From a virus, in IMG/VR virus record IMGVR_UViG_3300032238_001543, positions 1 to 49,434 of that record: a stretch of DNA of 49,434 nt; one strand, 5' to 3'. Of the stretch, positions 3,955-47,458 are shown in pieces (the first letter of the stretch is position 1; each line of letters opens with the position of its first letter). Under the pieces are notes generated by a model that ran no database searches, was not told the origin of the DNA, and was given only the letters and a program-made list of their open reading frames with translations. A program made the position numbers and the translations under genes.

Positions 3955-4668
3955 ATGGCCACCCCCGCAACATCGGCGCCAACCGGTGCCCTTAGTTTCC
4001 ACCTATCCCCCCGTAGCAGTAATGCCAAAACGGGGCCCATCCCTGTCAGCACGAGTTCGCGCCAGACGTGCCCCCCTACGTGCCCTTTTCTTAAAAACGG
4101 CTGTTACGGCGATAACTATCACCTGGCGATGCACTGGGATGCGGTTAGCTGCGGGGATCGTGGGACCCCGTGGAAAGAGTTTTTAGCTCGTATCGCAGGG
4201 CTGCCGTTTGGGCAGTTGTGGCGCCATAACCAAGCGGGTGATTTGGTGACCCCCGGTAACGCAATCGGCCGTAAGGCGTTGGAACAGCTGACGGAAGCGA
4301 ACCGCGGGCGTCGCGGTTTTACCTATTCGCATCACAAGCTGACCCCCAAAACGGTTCAGGCGTTTAAGGCTGCGACGGCAAACGGTTTTACCGTTAATGC
4401 CAGTTGCAACAGTGAGCGCGAAGCAGACGCAGCGATAGCCGCAGGCTTACGCGCTGTGTTTGTGGTGGCATCTGGTGATGAACGCGCTACGTGGCTCACG
4501 CCATACGGCAACCGCGCCATTGTTTGCCCCGCTCAGCGTTTCGATGCGATGGATTGCGCTAGGTGCAAGCTATGCCAAGCCAGGCCGCAAAACGTGGCGA
4601 TCGCATTTAGGGCTCATGGCACGCAACGGCGTAAGATCGACGCTGTTCTGGCTGACCTAGCCGGCTGA
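3955..4668 (+). CDS. Conserved Cys-rich phage protein (DUF7227-like)
   Basis: A 237-residue protein I recall as a family scattered through phages and plasmids, of unknown activity. Its hallmarks are visible: an N-terminal NAKTGPIPVSTSS segment, a Cys cluster (TCPPTCPFLKNGCYGD, spacing C-x3-C-x6-C), the central block GFTYSHHK, and a C-terminal cluster with CPAQ then CARCKLC. The cysteines suggest a metal or iron-sulfur site. The central region has alternating strands and helices (FTVNASCNSEREADAA, AVFVVASGD), which would suit a barrel-like enzyme; that is inference. The start ATG at 3955 fits the family N-terminus. Confidence 0.6.
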   Translation: MATPATSAPTGALSFHLSPRSSNAKTGPIPVSTSSRQTCPPTCPFLKNGCYGDNYHLAMHWDAVSCGDRGTPWKEFLARIAGLPFGQLWRHNQAGDLVTPGNAIGRKALEQLTEANRGRRGFTYSHHKLTPKTVQAFKAATANGFTVNASCNSEREADAAIAAGLRAVFVVASGDERATWLTPYGNRAIVCPAQRFDAMDCARCKLCQARPQNVAIAFRAHGTQRRKIDAVLADLAG

Positions 4669-13246: not shown

Positions 13247-13468
13247 ATGGAGAACATGCACTACGACAGGGACCTGAGCGCTGCATGGCGCTGCCACTTT
13301 GATCGGCGCGAGGGGATCCAGCGGATCCTGGAGGCCACGTTCATTGATGTGGGGCCGTTGGCCCTGCGCTCGATCCATGGGTGGGTGGAGGCGTTGGCCA
13401 CCGTCAGCGATGAGAGCTTTGATGCGGTGCTACGTGACGTGGTGGCGGAGCAGGAGGTGCAGCCTTGA
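13247..13468 (+). CDS. Hypothetical protein, 73 aa
   Basis: A 73-residue acidic helical protein (MENMHYDRDLSAAWRCHFDRREGIQRILEATF...). GGAGGG (13234-13239) lies 7 bp before the ATG, making this start clear; an in-frame GTG at 13178 would run through the phased site. The stop overlaps the TTG start of the DNA polymerase, so translation is probably coupled and the protein may act with or ahead of the polymerase. No family is recognised. Confidence 0.65.
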   Translation: MENMHYDRDLSAAWRCHFDRREGIQRILEATFIDVGPLALRSIHGWVEALATVSDESFDAVLRDVVAEQEVQP

Positions 13469-15315
13469 CGTTGCTTACGACCCTGCCGCTGGAGCGGAAG
13501 TTTGAGGAGCTGGGCATCGCGTTCTGCTTTGACACGGAGACGGCGATGGCACCTGCAGCCTTTGGCGGTTGGAACCATGTGCGGTTGCTGCAGTTCGCCA
13601 ATGAGGAGGGGTTTGAGTACTACCTCGACACCCTGGAGATGGGGACTGCAGAGATGGGCCTTGTGCGCGAAGCCCTGGAGCGGCCGGAGCTGGAGGTGCT
13701 GTGTCAGAACGCGGCCTTTGACTACCGCGTGATGCGTGGGTGCGGGATCTACCTCGGTGGCAAGCCGTCGCTGCAGCACCTGCCCACCCTGCGGGACACG
13801 ATGCTCTGCTCCCAGATCCTGCACAACGGGAAGGCCAACCTCAAGCACAACCTCGCGGCGATTGTGAAGCGGGAATGCCGGGTGGAGCTGGATAAGACCC
13901 TGCAGAAGAACAACTGGATGGAGGCGGTGCTCACCGAAGAGGAGATCGCCTACGCCATGGGGGATGTGCGCTACACGCTGAAGGCGGCGTACATGATGCA
14001 CCCACGGCTGAAGGAACAGGGCCTCTGGCCGACCTACGAGATGGAGTGTGCGCTGATTCCGGCGGTCGTGGAGATGGAATCGACGGGCATGAGGTTGGAT
14101 CCCGTGGCCATTGGGGAGACGCTGGAGGCGTATCAGGAGGAGGCGGCGTCGTGCCGAGATTGCTTCCTGGAGACGCTCGATGGGCGGTTGCAGAACGATG
14201 GGCTGGAGCCGCTACCCCGTGATGACGACGGGGCGTTCAACACTCGTGCGAAAGACAGCGGGGCTCTGCGGCTGGGTACGAAGCTCTACGCGGGGTTCAA
14301 TATCAACTCGGCGCAGCAGGTGCTGAAGTATTTCAATGCGCTGGGGATTGAGCCCGTCGATGACAACGGCAAGCCGTCGCTCGATAAGAAGGTGCTGTCG
14401 CGGTTTCAGAGCGACGAGCTGGTGCGGATGTATCGCAACTACCGCAATGTGGAGAAGCGCTACGGGATGGCTCAGAAACTCTGTGAACATGCCTGCGCGG
14501 ATGATCGGATTCGGGCGCGGTTCATGCAGCTTGGAACTGGCACGGGGCGTTGGTCATCAAGCGGGCCAAACCTGCAGCAGATTCCGCGGGATCCGGCGTT
14601 TCGGTGTGCGTTTCGGGCGCCGGAGGGGCGGGTGATTGTTGAGGCGGACTACGCGGCTATGGAGCTGCGGATTGCCGCGGCCCTGGCGGGAGAGCGCACC
14701 ATGTTGGAGGCGTTCAACGCGGGGCGGGATGTTCACACGCTGACTGCGTCGTTGATGTACGACGTGGATATGACGGAGGTTGAGAAGCAGCAGCGACAGG
14801 CGGCCAAGTCGGCCAACTTTGGGTTGCTGTATGGCTCGGGGCCACGGGGGTTGGCTAACTACTTCGCCACGGTGGGCATCTTCATCTCTGTAGCTCAGGC
14901 GGCGGAGTTCCACAGCATGTGGCACCGTGCCTACCCGGCATTTGGCAAGTGGCACAAGGAGTGTCAGGCCAGGGCGGACGATGGCGCGGAGATGCGTACG
15001 GTGATCGGCCGGCGGCGGTATCTCTACGGGGATGACAACAAGGTCACTACGCAGGCGAACAACCTTGTGCAGGGGACTGGGGCTGACATCTCTAAGGCGG
15101 CCATGGTGGAGATTCACCGTCGGTTGCCTGAGACGGCGCGGCTGCTGGCGACCGTCCATGACTCGTACCTGATTGAGTGTGATCGGGGGGATGCGCCGGG
15201 GGTGCTGTCGATGGTGCTGGCTGAGATGGAAGAAGCGGCTGTGCCTGTTCTAGGTGACGCCGTCAGGTTGACTGGTGAAGGTGGTTGCGGTCCCAGTTGG
15301 GGGGAGGCGAAGTGA
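13465..15315 (+). CDS. polA: Family A DNA polymerase with 3'-5' exonuclease
   Basis: The phage replicative polymerase, 616 aa, lacking the 5'-nuclease domain. The exonuclease domain shows FCFDTET (Asp23, Glu25), QNAAFDYRV (Asp86) and AYAMGDVRYT (Asp167). In the polymerase domain, motif A is VEADYAAMELR (Asp395) and motif B is RQAAKSANFGLLYG (Arg444, Lys448, Phe452, Tyr456). Motif C is TVHDSY (His565, Asp566). Phe452 aligns with E. coli Phe762, the position that tunes dideoxynucleotide discrimination and that varies between lytic and temperate phages. The start is a TTG overlapping the previous stop. It pairs functionally with the primase fusion and the ssDNA-binding protein. Confidence 0.93.
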   Translation: MTLLTTLPLERKFEELGIAFCFDTETAMAPAAFGGWNHVRLLQFANEEGFEYYLDTLEMGTAEMGLVREALERPELEVLCQNAAFDYRVMRGCGIYLGGKPSLQHLPTLRDTMLCSQILHNGKANLKHNLAAIVKRECRVELDKTLQKNNWMEAVLTEEEIAYAMGDVRYTLKAAYMMHPRLKEQGLWPTYEMECALIPAVVEMESTGMRLDPVAIGETLEAYQEEAASCRDCFLETLDGRLQNDGLEPLPRDDDGAFNTRAKDSGALRLGTKLYAGFNINSAQQVLKYFNALGIEPVDDNGKPSLDKKVLSRFQSDELVRMYRNYRNVEKRYGMAQKLCEHACADDRIRARFMQLGTGTGRWSSSGPNLQQIPRDPAFRCAFRAPEGRVIVEADYAAMELRIAAALAGERTMLEAFNAGRDVHTLTASLMYDVDMTEVEKQQRQAAKSANFGLLYGSGPRGLANYFATVGIFISVAQAAEFHSMWHRAYPAFGKWHKECQARADDGAEMRTVIGRRRYLYGDDNKVTTQANNLVQGTGADISKAAMVEIHRRLPETARLLATVHDSYLIECDRGDAPGVLSMVLAEMEEAAVPVLGDAVRLTGEGGCGPSWGEAK

Positions 15316-18821: not shown

Positions 18822-19418
18822 TTGCTTCAGAACGACATTTGGATCCGTGCCCGTGGCATGGGCGGGATGATTACGCCGTTTGAGCCATCGCTGGTTCGGC
18901 AGCAGACCGATGGGGTGAGACTCGGGAGTCCCGTGCTGAGTTATGGGTGCAGCTCGTATGGGTACGACCTGCGGCTGTCGCCGAAGCAGTTTTTGGTGTT
19001 TCGGCATGTGCCGGGGACGGTGATGGACCCGAAGGCGTTCAACGAGGACAACCTGGAGGAGGTGGCGCTGCGTACCGACGCCAAGGGTTCGTACTTTGTG
19101 CTGCCGGGGCACTCGTATGGGTTGGGGGTGGCGTTGGAGCGGTTGGAGATGCCGGCCAATGTGACGGGGGTGGCGCTAGGTAAAAGCACCTATGCGCGGA
19201 TGGGGATCATCGTGAACACGACGCCGGCTGAGGCGGGGTGGTGTGGGTATCTGACGCTGGAGTTCAGCAACAGCTCGGGGGCTGACTGCCGGTTGTACGC
19301 GAATGAGGGGATCTGTCAGCTGCTGTTTTTGGAGGGGGATCCGTGCGAGGTGTGTTACTCGACGCGGTCGGGGAAGTATCAGGGGCAACCTGATCGGGTC
19401 GTGCTGGCTAGGGTGTGA
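18822..19418 (+). CDS. dcd: dCTP deaminase
   Basis: Hydrolyses dCTP to dUTP, feeding thymidylate synthesis; homotrimeric, cytoplasmic. The 198 residues match the cyanobacterial Dcd form: start MLQNDIWIRARG, SYGCSSYGYDLRLSP, then HSYGLGVALERLEMPANVTGVALGKSTYARMGI. The catalytic block TTPAEAGWCGYLTLEFSNSS carries Glu137 (E. coli Glu138). The C-terminus is GKYQGQ then VLARV. The start is a TTG at 18822, supported by the family N-terminus. This is the only nucleotide-metabolism gene seen. It follows the hairpin-rich gap and is coupled to the next gene by overlap. Confidence 0.92.
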   Translation: MLQNDIWIRARGMGGMITPFEPSLVRQQTDGVRLGSPVLSYGCSSYGYDLRLSPKQFLVFRHVPGTVMDPKAFNEDNLEEVALRTDAKGSYFVLPGHSYGLGVALERLEMPANVTGVALGKSTYARMGIIVNTTPAEAGWCGYLTLEFSNSSGADCRLYANEGICQLLFLEGDPCEVCYSTRSGKYQGQPDRVVLARV

Positions 19419-20792: not shown

Positions 20793-21897
20793 CGGTGATG
20801 GCGTCGGCGAGGTCGGGGTCGTTGAGGGCTTCGAGGGAGTCGATGGTGGCGCGGAGGGTCGCTTGTTCGGCTGTTTCGTTGGTGGGGATGCTGTGGGCTA
20901 AGGCTTCGGCGTGGGTGGCGAGGGCTTTGGCGATGGCGGGGGCGATCACGGATTCGCGGGTGCTCTTGAACTGTTGGGGGCAGCCGCGGTGTTTGCAAAG
21001 GACCGAAGGGAGGGGGCGGCCGCCGACGTAGTTCATGCGACGGCCGCAGTTGCCGCAGACGCAGAGGCCGGTGAGCAGGCGCCGGACGGTCATGGTGTTG
21101 CGTCCCCTGAGCGAGCGGTTCTGCGCAAGGCGTCGCTCGACGTGGGCGAACTCTTCATGCGTGAGTAGTGGCTCGTGCGTTTCCCAAATTATTTGCGCGT
21201 AGGTGTGGTTGGGCTGTTGGTTATATCCGATGCCTCCTCGGAGTATGGGGTTCAGGAGCCATGCGCGGACAGCTCTACAACTGTGCAGCGGAATGTCTCC
21301 GCACTTTTGCACTTCCCATTGGGTGAGGGCGGTGTTCATGCGCCAGTTGCTGGAGGCGAGGGTGGAGAGGAACGCCTTGGCGCGGGGCCATTCGATGGGG
21401 TGGGGCTCGAAGTGGCGTTTGTCGTTGGTGATCCCGTAGCCCCAGGGGGCGCGGCCGCGCAGGGGCATGGCCTGTTTGCGGCGTTCGGTTAGGCCGGAGC
21501 GGATGCGGGTGGCGAGCATTCGGCTCTCCATCTCGGCCATGGTCGTCATGATCCGGCTCATGACGAACCCCGCGGGGGTCTCGGATTCGATGGTGCCGCC
21601 GTCGAGGGCGGTGAGCTTGACGCCCTTGCGGGCGGCGAAGGCGATGGCGGCGTCGGTGTCGGCGGCGTCGCGTCCCAGGCGGTCGACGCGGGCGATCACG
21701 ACCTCGTCGATGGCCTTGGTGGCGATCAGCTCCAGGAGCTGTTGGTAGCCGTCGCGGTCGGTTTCACGGCCGCTTTGGATGTCCTGCAGGATGAAGTCGA
21801 CGCCGGTGGCCTCGACACGGCTGCGCTGGTTGGCGAGGGCAGCCAGCTGTTCGCCTTTGGCAGTGGAAACTCGGACGTAGCCGACGCGGCGGGTCAT
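20605..21897 (-). CDS. Large serine recombinase (XisF-like integrase)
   Basis: A 430-residue site-specific recombinase, the presumed integrase. The N-terminal resolvase domain has VGYVRVST with the catalytic Ser11, plus ARVDRLGRDAAD with Arg73 and Arg76. Next comes the 'recombinase' domain (RGRAPWGYGI, LLNPILRGGIGYN, HEPLLTHEEFAHVERRL). A zinc ribbon follows (Cys279, 281, 284, 301, 306). The C-terminus is helical, possibly coiled-coil, with LTDLYHQFVAQVVV near the end. It resembles XisF, which excises developmental DNA elements in heterocystous cyanobacteria. No tyrosine integrase or excisionase is visible. It converges on the rightward operon and faces the 46-bp palindrome at 21968. Confidence 0.85.
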   Translation of the reverse strand: MTRRVGYVRVSTAKGEQLAALANQRSRVEATGVDFILQDIQSGRETDRDGYQQLLELIATKAIDEVVIARVDRLGRDAADTDAAIAFAARKGVKLTALDGGTIESETPAGFVMSRIMTTMAEMESRMLATRIRSGLTERRKQAMPLRGRAPWGYGITNDKRHFEPHPIEWPRAKAFLSTLASSNWRMNTALTQWEVQKCGDIPLHSCRAVRAWLLNPILRGGIGYNQQPNHTYAQIIWETHEPLLTHEEFAHVERRLAQNRSLRGRNTMTVRRLLTGLCVCGNCGRRMNYVGGRPLPSVLCKHRGCPQQFKSTRESVIAPAIAKALATHAEALAHSIPTNETAEQATLRATIDSLEALNDPDLADAITAKRQRLAQLKTQPAVPAALLEPLRDPRLYELATYEELTDLYHQFVAQVVVTSQEVERVDLRF

Positions 21898-21967
21898 TGC
21901 AGCTGGGTGCAGCGTTTTGGGGCGAGGGTGCAGCGAGCGTCGCGTGAGACTCGTTGCAGGGGCTTGC

Positions 21968-22013
21968 GGTGTCCCCAGTTACCTGATTATCTGAGCAGGT
22001 ACCTAGGGACACC
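21968..22013. other. 46-bp interrupted palindrome; candidate attP or recombinase operator
   Basis: GGTGTCCC (21968-21975) and GGGACACC (22006-22013) are perfect inverted arms. Inside them TACCTG (21980-21985) and CAGGTA (21996-22001) are also perfectly inverted, at equal distances from the centre (ATTAT|CTGAG; central dinucleotide TC at 21990-21991). The size and the place next to a large serine recombinase suit an attP site, which for this class is typically about 50 bp with imperfect symmetry. The same stretch also carries TACCT, TATCT, CAGGT and TAGGG at 21980, 21988, 21996 and 22004, an 8-bp ladder, so it may double as an operator. Confidence 0.5.
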
Positions 22014-22018
22014 GGCCA

Positions 22019-22240
22019 ATGCAGCGCAACAGCAGCGACTTCGACGCAGCGATTCAGGAAGCGGTGGGGGTGACAGGGGAACTGCTGGAGGCGCTCCACT
22101 TGGTGAGTGATTTGGGGTGGGATGACGACGTGGCGGTGCTCCATGTGCGGGCGTGGCGCAGCGCCATCTCGGTTCAGCGGGAGTTGGTGCGGTTGGCGGT
22201 ACTGCAGCACCGGCCTGACGCCGGGGAACATGCTGCGTGA
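22019..22240 (+). CDS. Hypothetical protein, 73 aa
   Basis: A 73-residue acidic helical protein (MQRNSSDFDAAIQEAVGVTGELLEALHLVSDLGWDDDVAVLHVRAW...). It starts 5 bp after the palindrome and is divergent from the recombinase. That position is typical of an excision factor or regulator, but the sequence has no recognisable DNA-binding motif. Unknown function. Confidence 0.5.
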   Translation: MQRNSSDFDAAIQEAVGVTGELLEALHLVSDLGWDDDVAVLHVRAWRSAISVQRELVRLAVLQHRPDAGEHAA

Positions 22241-46381: not shown

Positions 46382-47458
46382 TCAGGCGTAGACGCCGGCG
46401 TCATATGGTGTATTCACCAGGAGGCGAACCATGGGGATGTTCTTCACCTGGGCGTAGGCGAGTGCCCAGCTGCTGGTGGCGGCGAGGTTGCCGGTGGTGG
46501 CGGCGTTGGTGGGGTTGTCACCGGCGGCGGCCCAGCGGGTGCCACGTAGGTGTTGAGCGTAGTGGTAGTCGCAGATCAGCAGGTCCTGGAAGCTGCTGAG
46601 GTTGCGGTCGTAGTTGATGCGCAGGTCCTGTTGGACGCCTTCGAGGATGCTGCCGCCCGCCATCAGGTACACGGGGTACTTGTTGAGGTGGGTGGAGGTG
46701 CCGCCAGAGATCACGCCGACTTGGTCGTCGACGATCACGCGGAGGTTGGCGAAGGTTTGGGTGCTCAGGCCCTGCAGACCGCCGTTGGCGGATACGTTGC
46801 CGCCGGACACCAGCACTTGGGTGTAACCGGTTTCTTCTAGGTACGCAGCAACGTTGCTGTGCATCACGATGGTGGTCAGCTCACTGGCTCGCTCGCCCAG
46901 CTTGGCCTTGGCCTTGATCACGTTGGACGCGGTCAAGTAGTTGGAGCTGGTGGCTGTGGTGGTGCCGGTGGCGTTGAGGGTGTTGGTGCCCAGGATGCCA
47001 GAGCCGGAGATGTTGCCGAACAGGCCGCCGAGCTGGGCGAGCAGCGTGGCAGTCTTTTTCTTGTTCAGGGCTGCGGCCAGTTGGTTGGCAACGTGACCGA
47101 GGGGGTCAGTGCCGGTGCCGAGTTTCGACAGGTCATCTACGGCGTATTGGAAACCGCGGTGCAGGATGGTTGCGATTTCCTCGTCGGCTGTGACTTTCTG
47201 GGAAGTCAGATAGCCGGCGCCGCTGGTGCCCCAGGAGTTGCTGGAGGTGATTGTCTCCTCCGTGGGCTCGATGAAGTCGAAGAAGGGTACGCGGACGCGG
47301 GTACCGCCGGAACGGGCGTCGAGCGCAGGGTTGCGCTGCATTACGCCGGATTGGATGAAGGCGGATTGCTCGAAAATCCGCTCCGACAGATAGTCGGTGA
47401 ACTGGGGTTTGGTGATGAGGTCGGCTAGAAAGCCGCCACCCTGGTTTTGGAGAGACAT
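46382..47458 (-). CDS. Major capsid protein
   Basis: A 358-residue coat protein. It has QGGGFLADLITKPQFTDYLSERIFEQSAFIQSGVMQRNPALDARSGGTRVRVPFFDF near the N-terminus, then DEEIATILHRGFQYAVDDLSKLGTGTDPLGHVANQLAAALNKK. HSNVAAYLEETGY, LSTQTFANLRVIVDDQVGV and VYLMAGGSILEGVQQDLRINYDRNLSSFQDLLI follow. This matches the P22/HK97-fold major coat proteins recalled from cyanophages, with no protease or N-terminal delta domain visible. It is preceded by a scaffold gene and followed by a terminator, as expected for the most abundant protein. Confidence 0.85.
   Translation of the reverse strand: MSLQNQGGGFLADLITKPQFTDYLSERIFEQSAFIQSGVMQRNPALDARSGGTRVRVPFFDFIEPTEETITSSNSWGTSGAGYLTSQKVTADEEIATILHRGFQYAVDDLSKLGTGTDPLGHVANQLAAALNKKKTATLLAQLGGLFGNISGSGILGTNTLNATGTTTATSSNYLTASNVIKAKAKLGERASELTTIVMHSNVAAYLEETGYTQVLVSGGNVSANGGLQGLSTQTFANLRVIVDDQVGVISGGTSTHLNKYPVYLMAGGSILEGVQQDLRINYDRNLSSFQDLLICDYHYAQHLRGTRWAAAGDNPTNAATTGNLAATSSWALAYAQVKNIPMVRLLVNTPYDAGVYA

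Follow-up and report, generated by a model that had tools for sequence, protein, structure and literature searches.

The window analysed here, the whole of an IMG/VR virus record (49,434 bp), carries an imperfect palindrome between the start of a serine recombinase gene and a small divergent gene, and this raises the question of whether the palindrome is the site at which the phage would integrate. An earlier note on this DNA had proposed as much, describing a 46-bp symmetric candidate attP beyond the recombinase start. The palindrome is here read as the putative attP of the adjoining large serine integrase, with a probability of about 0.88.

The product of the recombinase gene is, judged by its domains and a structural model, a large serine integrase. 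The N terminus contains a resolvase-type catalytic domain (PF00239, residues 5-142, E 6.1e-28) and the long C-terminal region contains the recombinase and zinc-ribbon domains characteristic of this class, with matches to PF07508 (20.9 bits) and PF13408 (23.5 bits) that both fall slightly below cut-off. Cysteines 281, 284, 301 and 306 are invariant. The protein matches the PHROG integrase family phrog_95, and its catalytic domain also phrog_125, while profile matches in the PDB are SPbeta YokA and the A118 CTD, reaching profile position 332. The model has a pLDDT of 83 and a pTM of only 0.41; its best fold matches in the PDB are the integrase-DNA complexes of SPbeta, phiC31 and Bxb1.

The sequence at 21968-22013 on the plus strand is GGTGTCCCCAGTTACCTGATTATCTGAGCAGGTACCTAGGGACACC. 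The outer arms GGTGTCCC/GGGACACC and the inner arms TACCTG/CAGGTA are equally spaced around a central TC, just as the earlier note had it, and pairing is found at 18 of 22 positions when the centre is not counted. One extra pair (C21967/G22014) extends the dyad to 48 bp. A repeat search returned the same structure as 19-nt arms that are 89% complementary with 10 nt between them. The position beyond the recombinase start was also confirmed, the dyad centre lying 93 bp upstream of the integrase ATG. No other even-centred 46-bp dyad of the entire record scores as high, and none of 516 windows of the same width taken from the rest of the record holds an equally good one. Among 60 first-order Markov genomes matched in length, three reached a maximum of 17/22 and none reached 18. 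The runner-up in the record (16/22, at 21674-21719 with a TC centre at 21696-21697) lies within the integrase gene and is in the chance range. The features of the locus are collected in Table 1.

Table 1. Features of the integrase locus, with positions in the window.
Feature	Position	Strand	Evidence
Large serine integrase, 430 aa	20605..21897	-	PF00239, phrog_95, YokA profile match, integrase fold matches
Candidate attP, 48-bp imperfect dyad	21967..22014		18/22 pairs, top dyad of the window; similarly placed dyads at related int loci
Outer arm distal to int, predicted zinc-ribbon-domain motif	21968..21975		Positions 15-22 from centre, 8/8 paired; LI reads 16-24 (PMC3783163)
Central dinucleotide TC (+) / GA (-), predicted crossover	21990..21991		Exact dyad centre; GA in the window's clade, others AA or TA
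Outer arm, small-gene side, partner of 21968-21975	22006..22013		Positions 15-22, 8/8 paired; LI 16-24 (PMC3783163)
Small divergent gene, 73 aa, candidate directionality factor	22019..22240	+	Counterparts across the site, third-position bias, co-divergence with int, two-helix model

The attP sites of serine integrases are inverted repeats of 45-50 bp, usually adjacent to int (PMC5311408), and the palindrome corresponds to this description, being an imperfect inverted repeat of that size with a central dinucleotide and an adjoining integrase gene. The spacing of the arms is informative as well. The attP half-site of the LI integrase is 25 bp long, with the recombinase domain on the inner part and the zinc-ribbon motif at positions 16-24, and in the LI attB this motif lies 5 bp nearer the centre (PMC3783163). 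With outer arms at positions 15-22 in the window and a peak at 16-21 in its relatives, the distance of the outer motif fits an attP and not an attB. An attachment site of the tRNA type was rejected, the window having no tRNA.

Viral contigs were scanned for related integrase loci in overlapping sets of 7, 54 and 80, and 41 sites upstream of int were scored, including the window and with L079 set aside. Two choices in this scoring favour symmetry: the centres were anchored, in part by eye, to conserved core words, and loci showing no clear dyad were dropped (for example L026, L036, L037, L065, L077, L083 and L093). Three integrase clades were found to have a dyad of their own, 50-110 bp upstream of int. 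The window's clade has GA as its central dinucleotide, a second, large clade has AA, and a third, which is AT-rich, has TA, with a single TT in L101. The arms of the different clades are unrelated (GGTGTCCC or TTCCTGT; GCGCT; GTCGCCTT), matching their own partner and pairing poorly across clades.

For the 35 sites that are less than 85% alike, positions 15-23 were paired in 72% of cells. Sliding one arm by 1-3 bases gave 18-35% pairing at these positions, and re-dealing the right arms in 20,000 trials gave a mean of 45% and a maximum of 62%. The partner arm of a neighbour in the same clade pairs about as well as a site's own, and the independent evidence therefore amounts to about four clade-level contrasts rather than 35. 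Among these four groups pairing with the own partner was 0.53-0.92 as against 0.14-0.51 for cross-pairing, and the true joining of left and right arms was the best of all 24. Pairing peaks at positions 2, 3, 5, 8 and 16-21 from the centre. At positions 15-22 it is above own-locus chance in the window, the AA and TA clades, the L027 group, L002 and L005; no outer-arm symmetry above chance was found in L003, L006, L007, L075 or L076, all of which belong to the window's own clade.

In a test that does not depend on the placing of centres, the best dyad 30-125 bp upstream of int was compared with equal windows elsewhere in the same locus. Among 44 non-redundant loci, 8 fell at or below 5% and 13 at or below 10% (KS p 0.003, kinship between loci ignored); the window, L057, L085 and L089 were at or near zero and L094 and L097 at 1%. 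The excess of upstream dyads in this test is modest. At the level of sequence, the upstream dyad has been shown to be a property of several clades, independent in at least three, and not of every locus. Across the AA-clade site from int the neighbouring gene is variable (sigma factor, endolysin, HTH protein and others) and the dyad thus goes with int. In L064 and L101 the site has a sigma-factor-like ORF as its divergent neighbour. The type of integrase, the length of the dyad with its central dinucleotide, the LI-like arm positions and the dyads of three clades together give good support to the proposal of an attP.

Binding, the position of cleavage, recombination and a temperate life of the phage are deduced by analogy with the established mechanism of serine integrases. 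An integrase dimer would bind both half-sites, its recombinase domains contacting the inner positions and its zinc-ribbon domains the outer arms GGTGTCCC/GGGACACC, and this attP-bound dimer would pair with a dimer on the attB of the host. Staggered breaks would then be made at the central GA/TC, where cleavage is predicted from the dyad centre, and rotation and rejoining would leave the circular phage genome inserted into the host chromosome.

Traces of integration were searched for in genomes and with half-sites. No relatives of the integrase were found in about 85,000 species genomes by two scans, one with the single protein and one with an alignment; these scans come down to a few short peptides, and the absence is no proof. 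In half-site scans for attL and attR all matches were intact two-armed sites except L124, a 6.2-kb contig without an integrase that has one arm word, roughly what an 18-mer would yield by chance. Since these genome and half-site scans yielded no attB, attL, attR or provirus junction, recombination at the site is only inferred. The outer-arm pattern had 17 matches in viral contigs, none with a similar interior, and these were read as chance.

A dyad between two divergent genes could instead be the operator of a dimeric regulator of int and the small gene, and not a recombination site. The regular spacing in the GA clade, where the small gene starts 25-34 bp from the dyad centre in 11 of 12 measured loci (6 bp in L076, by the longest reading), agrees with such a role. 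Arms that reach 23 bp on either side of the dinucleotide, however, are more in keeping with an integrase site than with the usual operator, the AA-clade dyads stay beside int whatever the other neighbour is, and a promoter scan gave no match, so that an operator in place of an attP is improbable. Integrase binding could also regulate, and in that sense the operator and attP readings are compatible.

It is still less probable that the recombinase is an invertase or resolvase acting on internal crossover sites, among them the dyad. The catalytic domain does match such proteins as well as integrases (phrog_125 and PDB matches), but the long C-terminal region is of the integrase type, the best full-length fold matches are integrases, and no second dyad of like strength is present in the window, a record that may be incomplete. 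Equally slight is the probability of a chance palindrome, an RNA hairpin or a terminator. Simulated genomes do come within one pair of the observed value and several near relatives are without clear symmetry; against this, similarly placed dyads with different arms occur in other clades, and terminator and Rfam scans gave no match.

The earlier note had further suggested that integration and regulation may be coupled at this site through an 8-bp phased ladder formed by the same bases. The ladder (TTACCTGA, TTATCTGA, GCAGGTAC) can be made out in the window, but related loci have not conserved it; it seems to follow from the inner arms. Because the relatives have not kept it, this part of the earlier reading is unsupported. 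Another form of coupling is possible, as the site in the GA clade abuts the start codon of the conserved divergent small gene.

In both the GA and the TA clade a conserved small divergent ORF, marked by an 'L..LSD'-like signature, is found on the opposite side of the site from int; its start lies farther from the site in the TA clade. Counterparts of the small gene are present in L003-L007, L026-L037 and L075-L093. In L028-L032, 166 of 221 substitutions in the gene are in third positions and the single changes comprise 142 synonymous and 32 non-synonymous ones; the comparison of L077 with L093 was unaligned and uninformative. In contigs found through the small gene the integrase adjoins in 12 of 12. 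The distances of the small gene and of the integrase are correlated (r = 0.86, 18 loci), which is weak support, since adjacent genes co-diverge by linkage alone. The small gene thus shows the co-occurrence and co-evolution with the integrase that are looked for in a directionality factor. Its product showed no resemblance to known factors of this kind, having no match in Pfam, PHROG or PDB folds, and is modelled as two long helices (pLDDT 87). Known directionality factors share little homology (PMC5311408).

From its sequence and by analogy, the small gene may tentatively be taken to encode the directionality factor for excision, at odds somewhat short of even. The precedent for this reading is Streptomyces phage phiJoe, where such a gene flanks attP opposite int. 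As the candidate attP sits between the small gene and int, integration would send the two genes to opposite ends of the prophage, and host DNA would take the place of the sequence immediately upstream of the small gene. A wider and more doubtful reading is that uncultured phages of fresh and marine waters possess, in int, attP and the small gene, a self-contained switch for integration and excision whose directionality factor belongs to an as yet unnamed two-helix-hairpin class, and that expression of the small gene changes on integration, the attP being its upstream region.

The closest parallel in arrangement is phiJoe (PMC5311408), which like the window has a serine integrase and, just upstream of int, an attP that is an imperfect inverted repeat with a central dinucleotide. 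The phiJoe attP is at most 50 bp and has on its other side the small RDF gene gp52, a proven directionality factor (PMC5311408). Recombination has been demonstrated and attB is known in phiJoe, whereas the attP of the window is read from sequence, and gp52 is predicted to consist of helix and sheet while the small protein of the window has two helices in the model and no family match. The integrase-attP complex of Listeria A118/LI (PMC3783163, PDB 4kis) resembles the window in its half-site, with an inner part for the recombinase domain and an outer zinc-ribbon motif at 16-24, but differs in the sequence of the motif, and the protein is distant (profile match E 6e-4). Over its full length, the integrase model finds its best fold match in YokA (SprA) of SPbeta with its directionality factor YotN (SprB) (PDB 9dxd). 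YotN is small, like the candidate of the window; YokA and the window integrase share 15% identity, and the small protein has no fold match to any PDB chain.

Among cyanophages, the serine recombinase of Nodularia phage vB_NpeS-2AV2 matches a TA-clade integrase over 98% with 25% identity. Serine recombinases in cyanophages are therefore not new as such, one being annotated in 2AV2. The integrases of S-LBS1, P-SS2, P-SSP7 and S-TIP37 concern integration into picocyanobacteria, which is proven for S-TIP37 and P-SSP7 (PMC6157547, PMC2784084, PMC8776855). That of S-LBS1 is stated to be of the tyrosine type, in contrast to the serine type of the window, and the att sites proposed for P-SS2, P-SSP7 and S-TIP37 are stretches identical in phage and host, unlike the symmetric site described here. 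No paper joining cyanophage, serine integrase and attP was found among the open-access papers searched.

Lysogeny is apparently rare in unicellular cyanobacteria, although phages capable of integration exist (PMC6157547). That a family of phage serine integrases has attachment sites which stay recognisable despite wide divergence suggests selection for integration in nature, while the scans of species genomes found no relative. The integrase, its candidate attP and the candidate excision factor are material for testing integration. Serine integrases are also tools for genome engineering, and few have a known directionality factor; a list from 2017 has seven (PMC5311408).

In some AA-clade phages (L041, L051 and L060) the DNA across the site can be read, on the far strand, as a short protein whose N terminus, LLTxxEAA.., is excisionase-like, and this protein is possibly another directionality factor.

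The host of the virus is likely to be a cyanobacterium, to judge from its protein matches. The endolysin of the record shares 68% identity with its counterpart in Synechococcus phage S-SRP02. Identity of the major head protein to the S-2L one is 33%, and an uncultured marine virus is nearer at 42%. No terminal repeat was found at the window ends (1 and 49434). Long open frames continue across the joined ends, and the contig may therefore be a circularly permuted, near-complete genome. Cyanophage S-2L is known for its 2-aminoadenine DNA. In the window, the S-2L-related head protein gene is at 46382-47458 (-) and a family-A-type DNA polymerase gene at 13465-15315 (+), and a dCTP-deaminase-like protein (18822-19418, +) and a DUF7227 protein (3955-4668, +) are also encoded.
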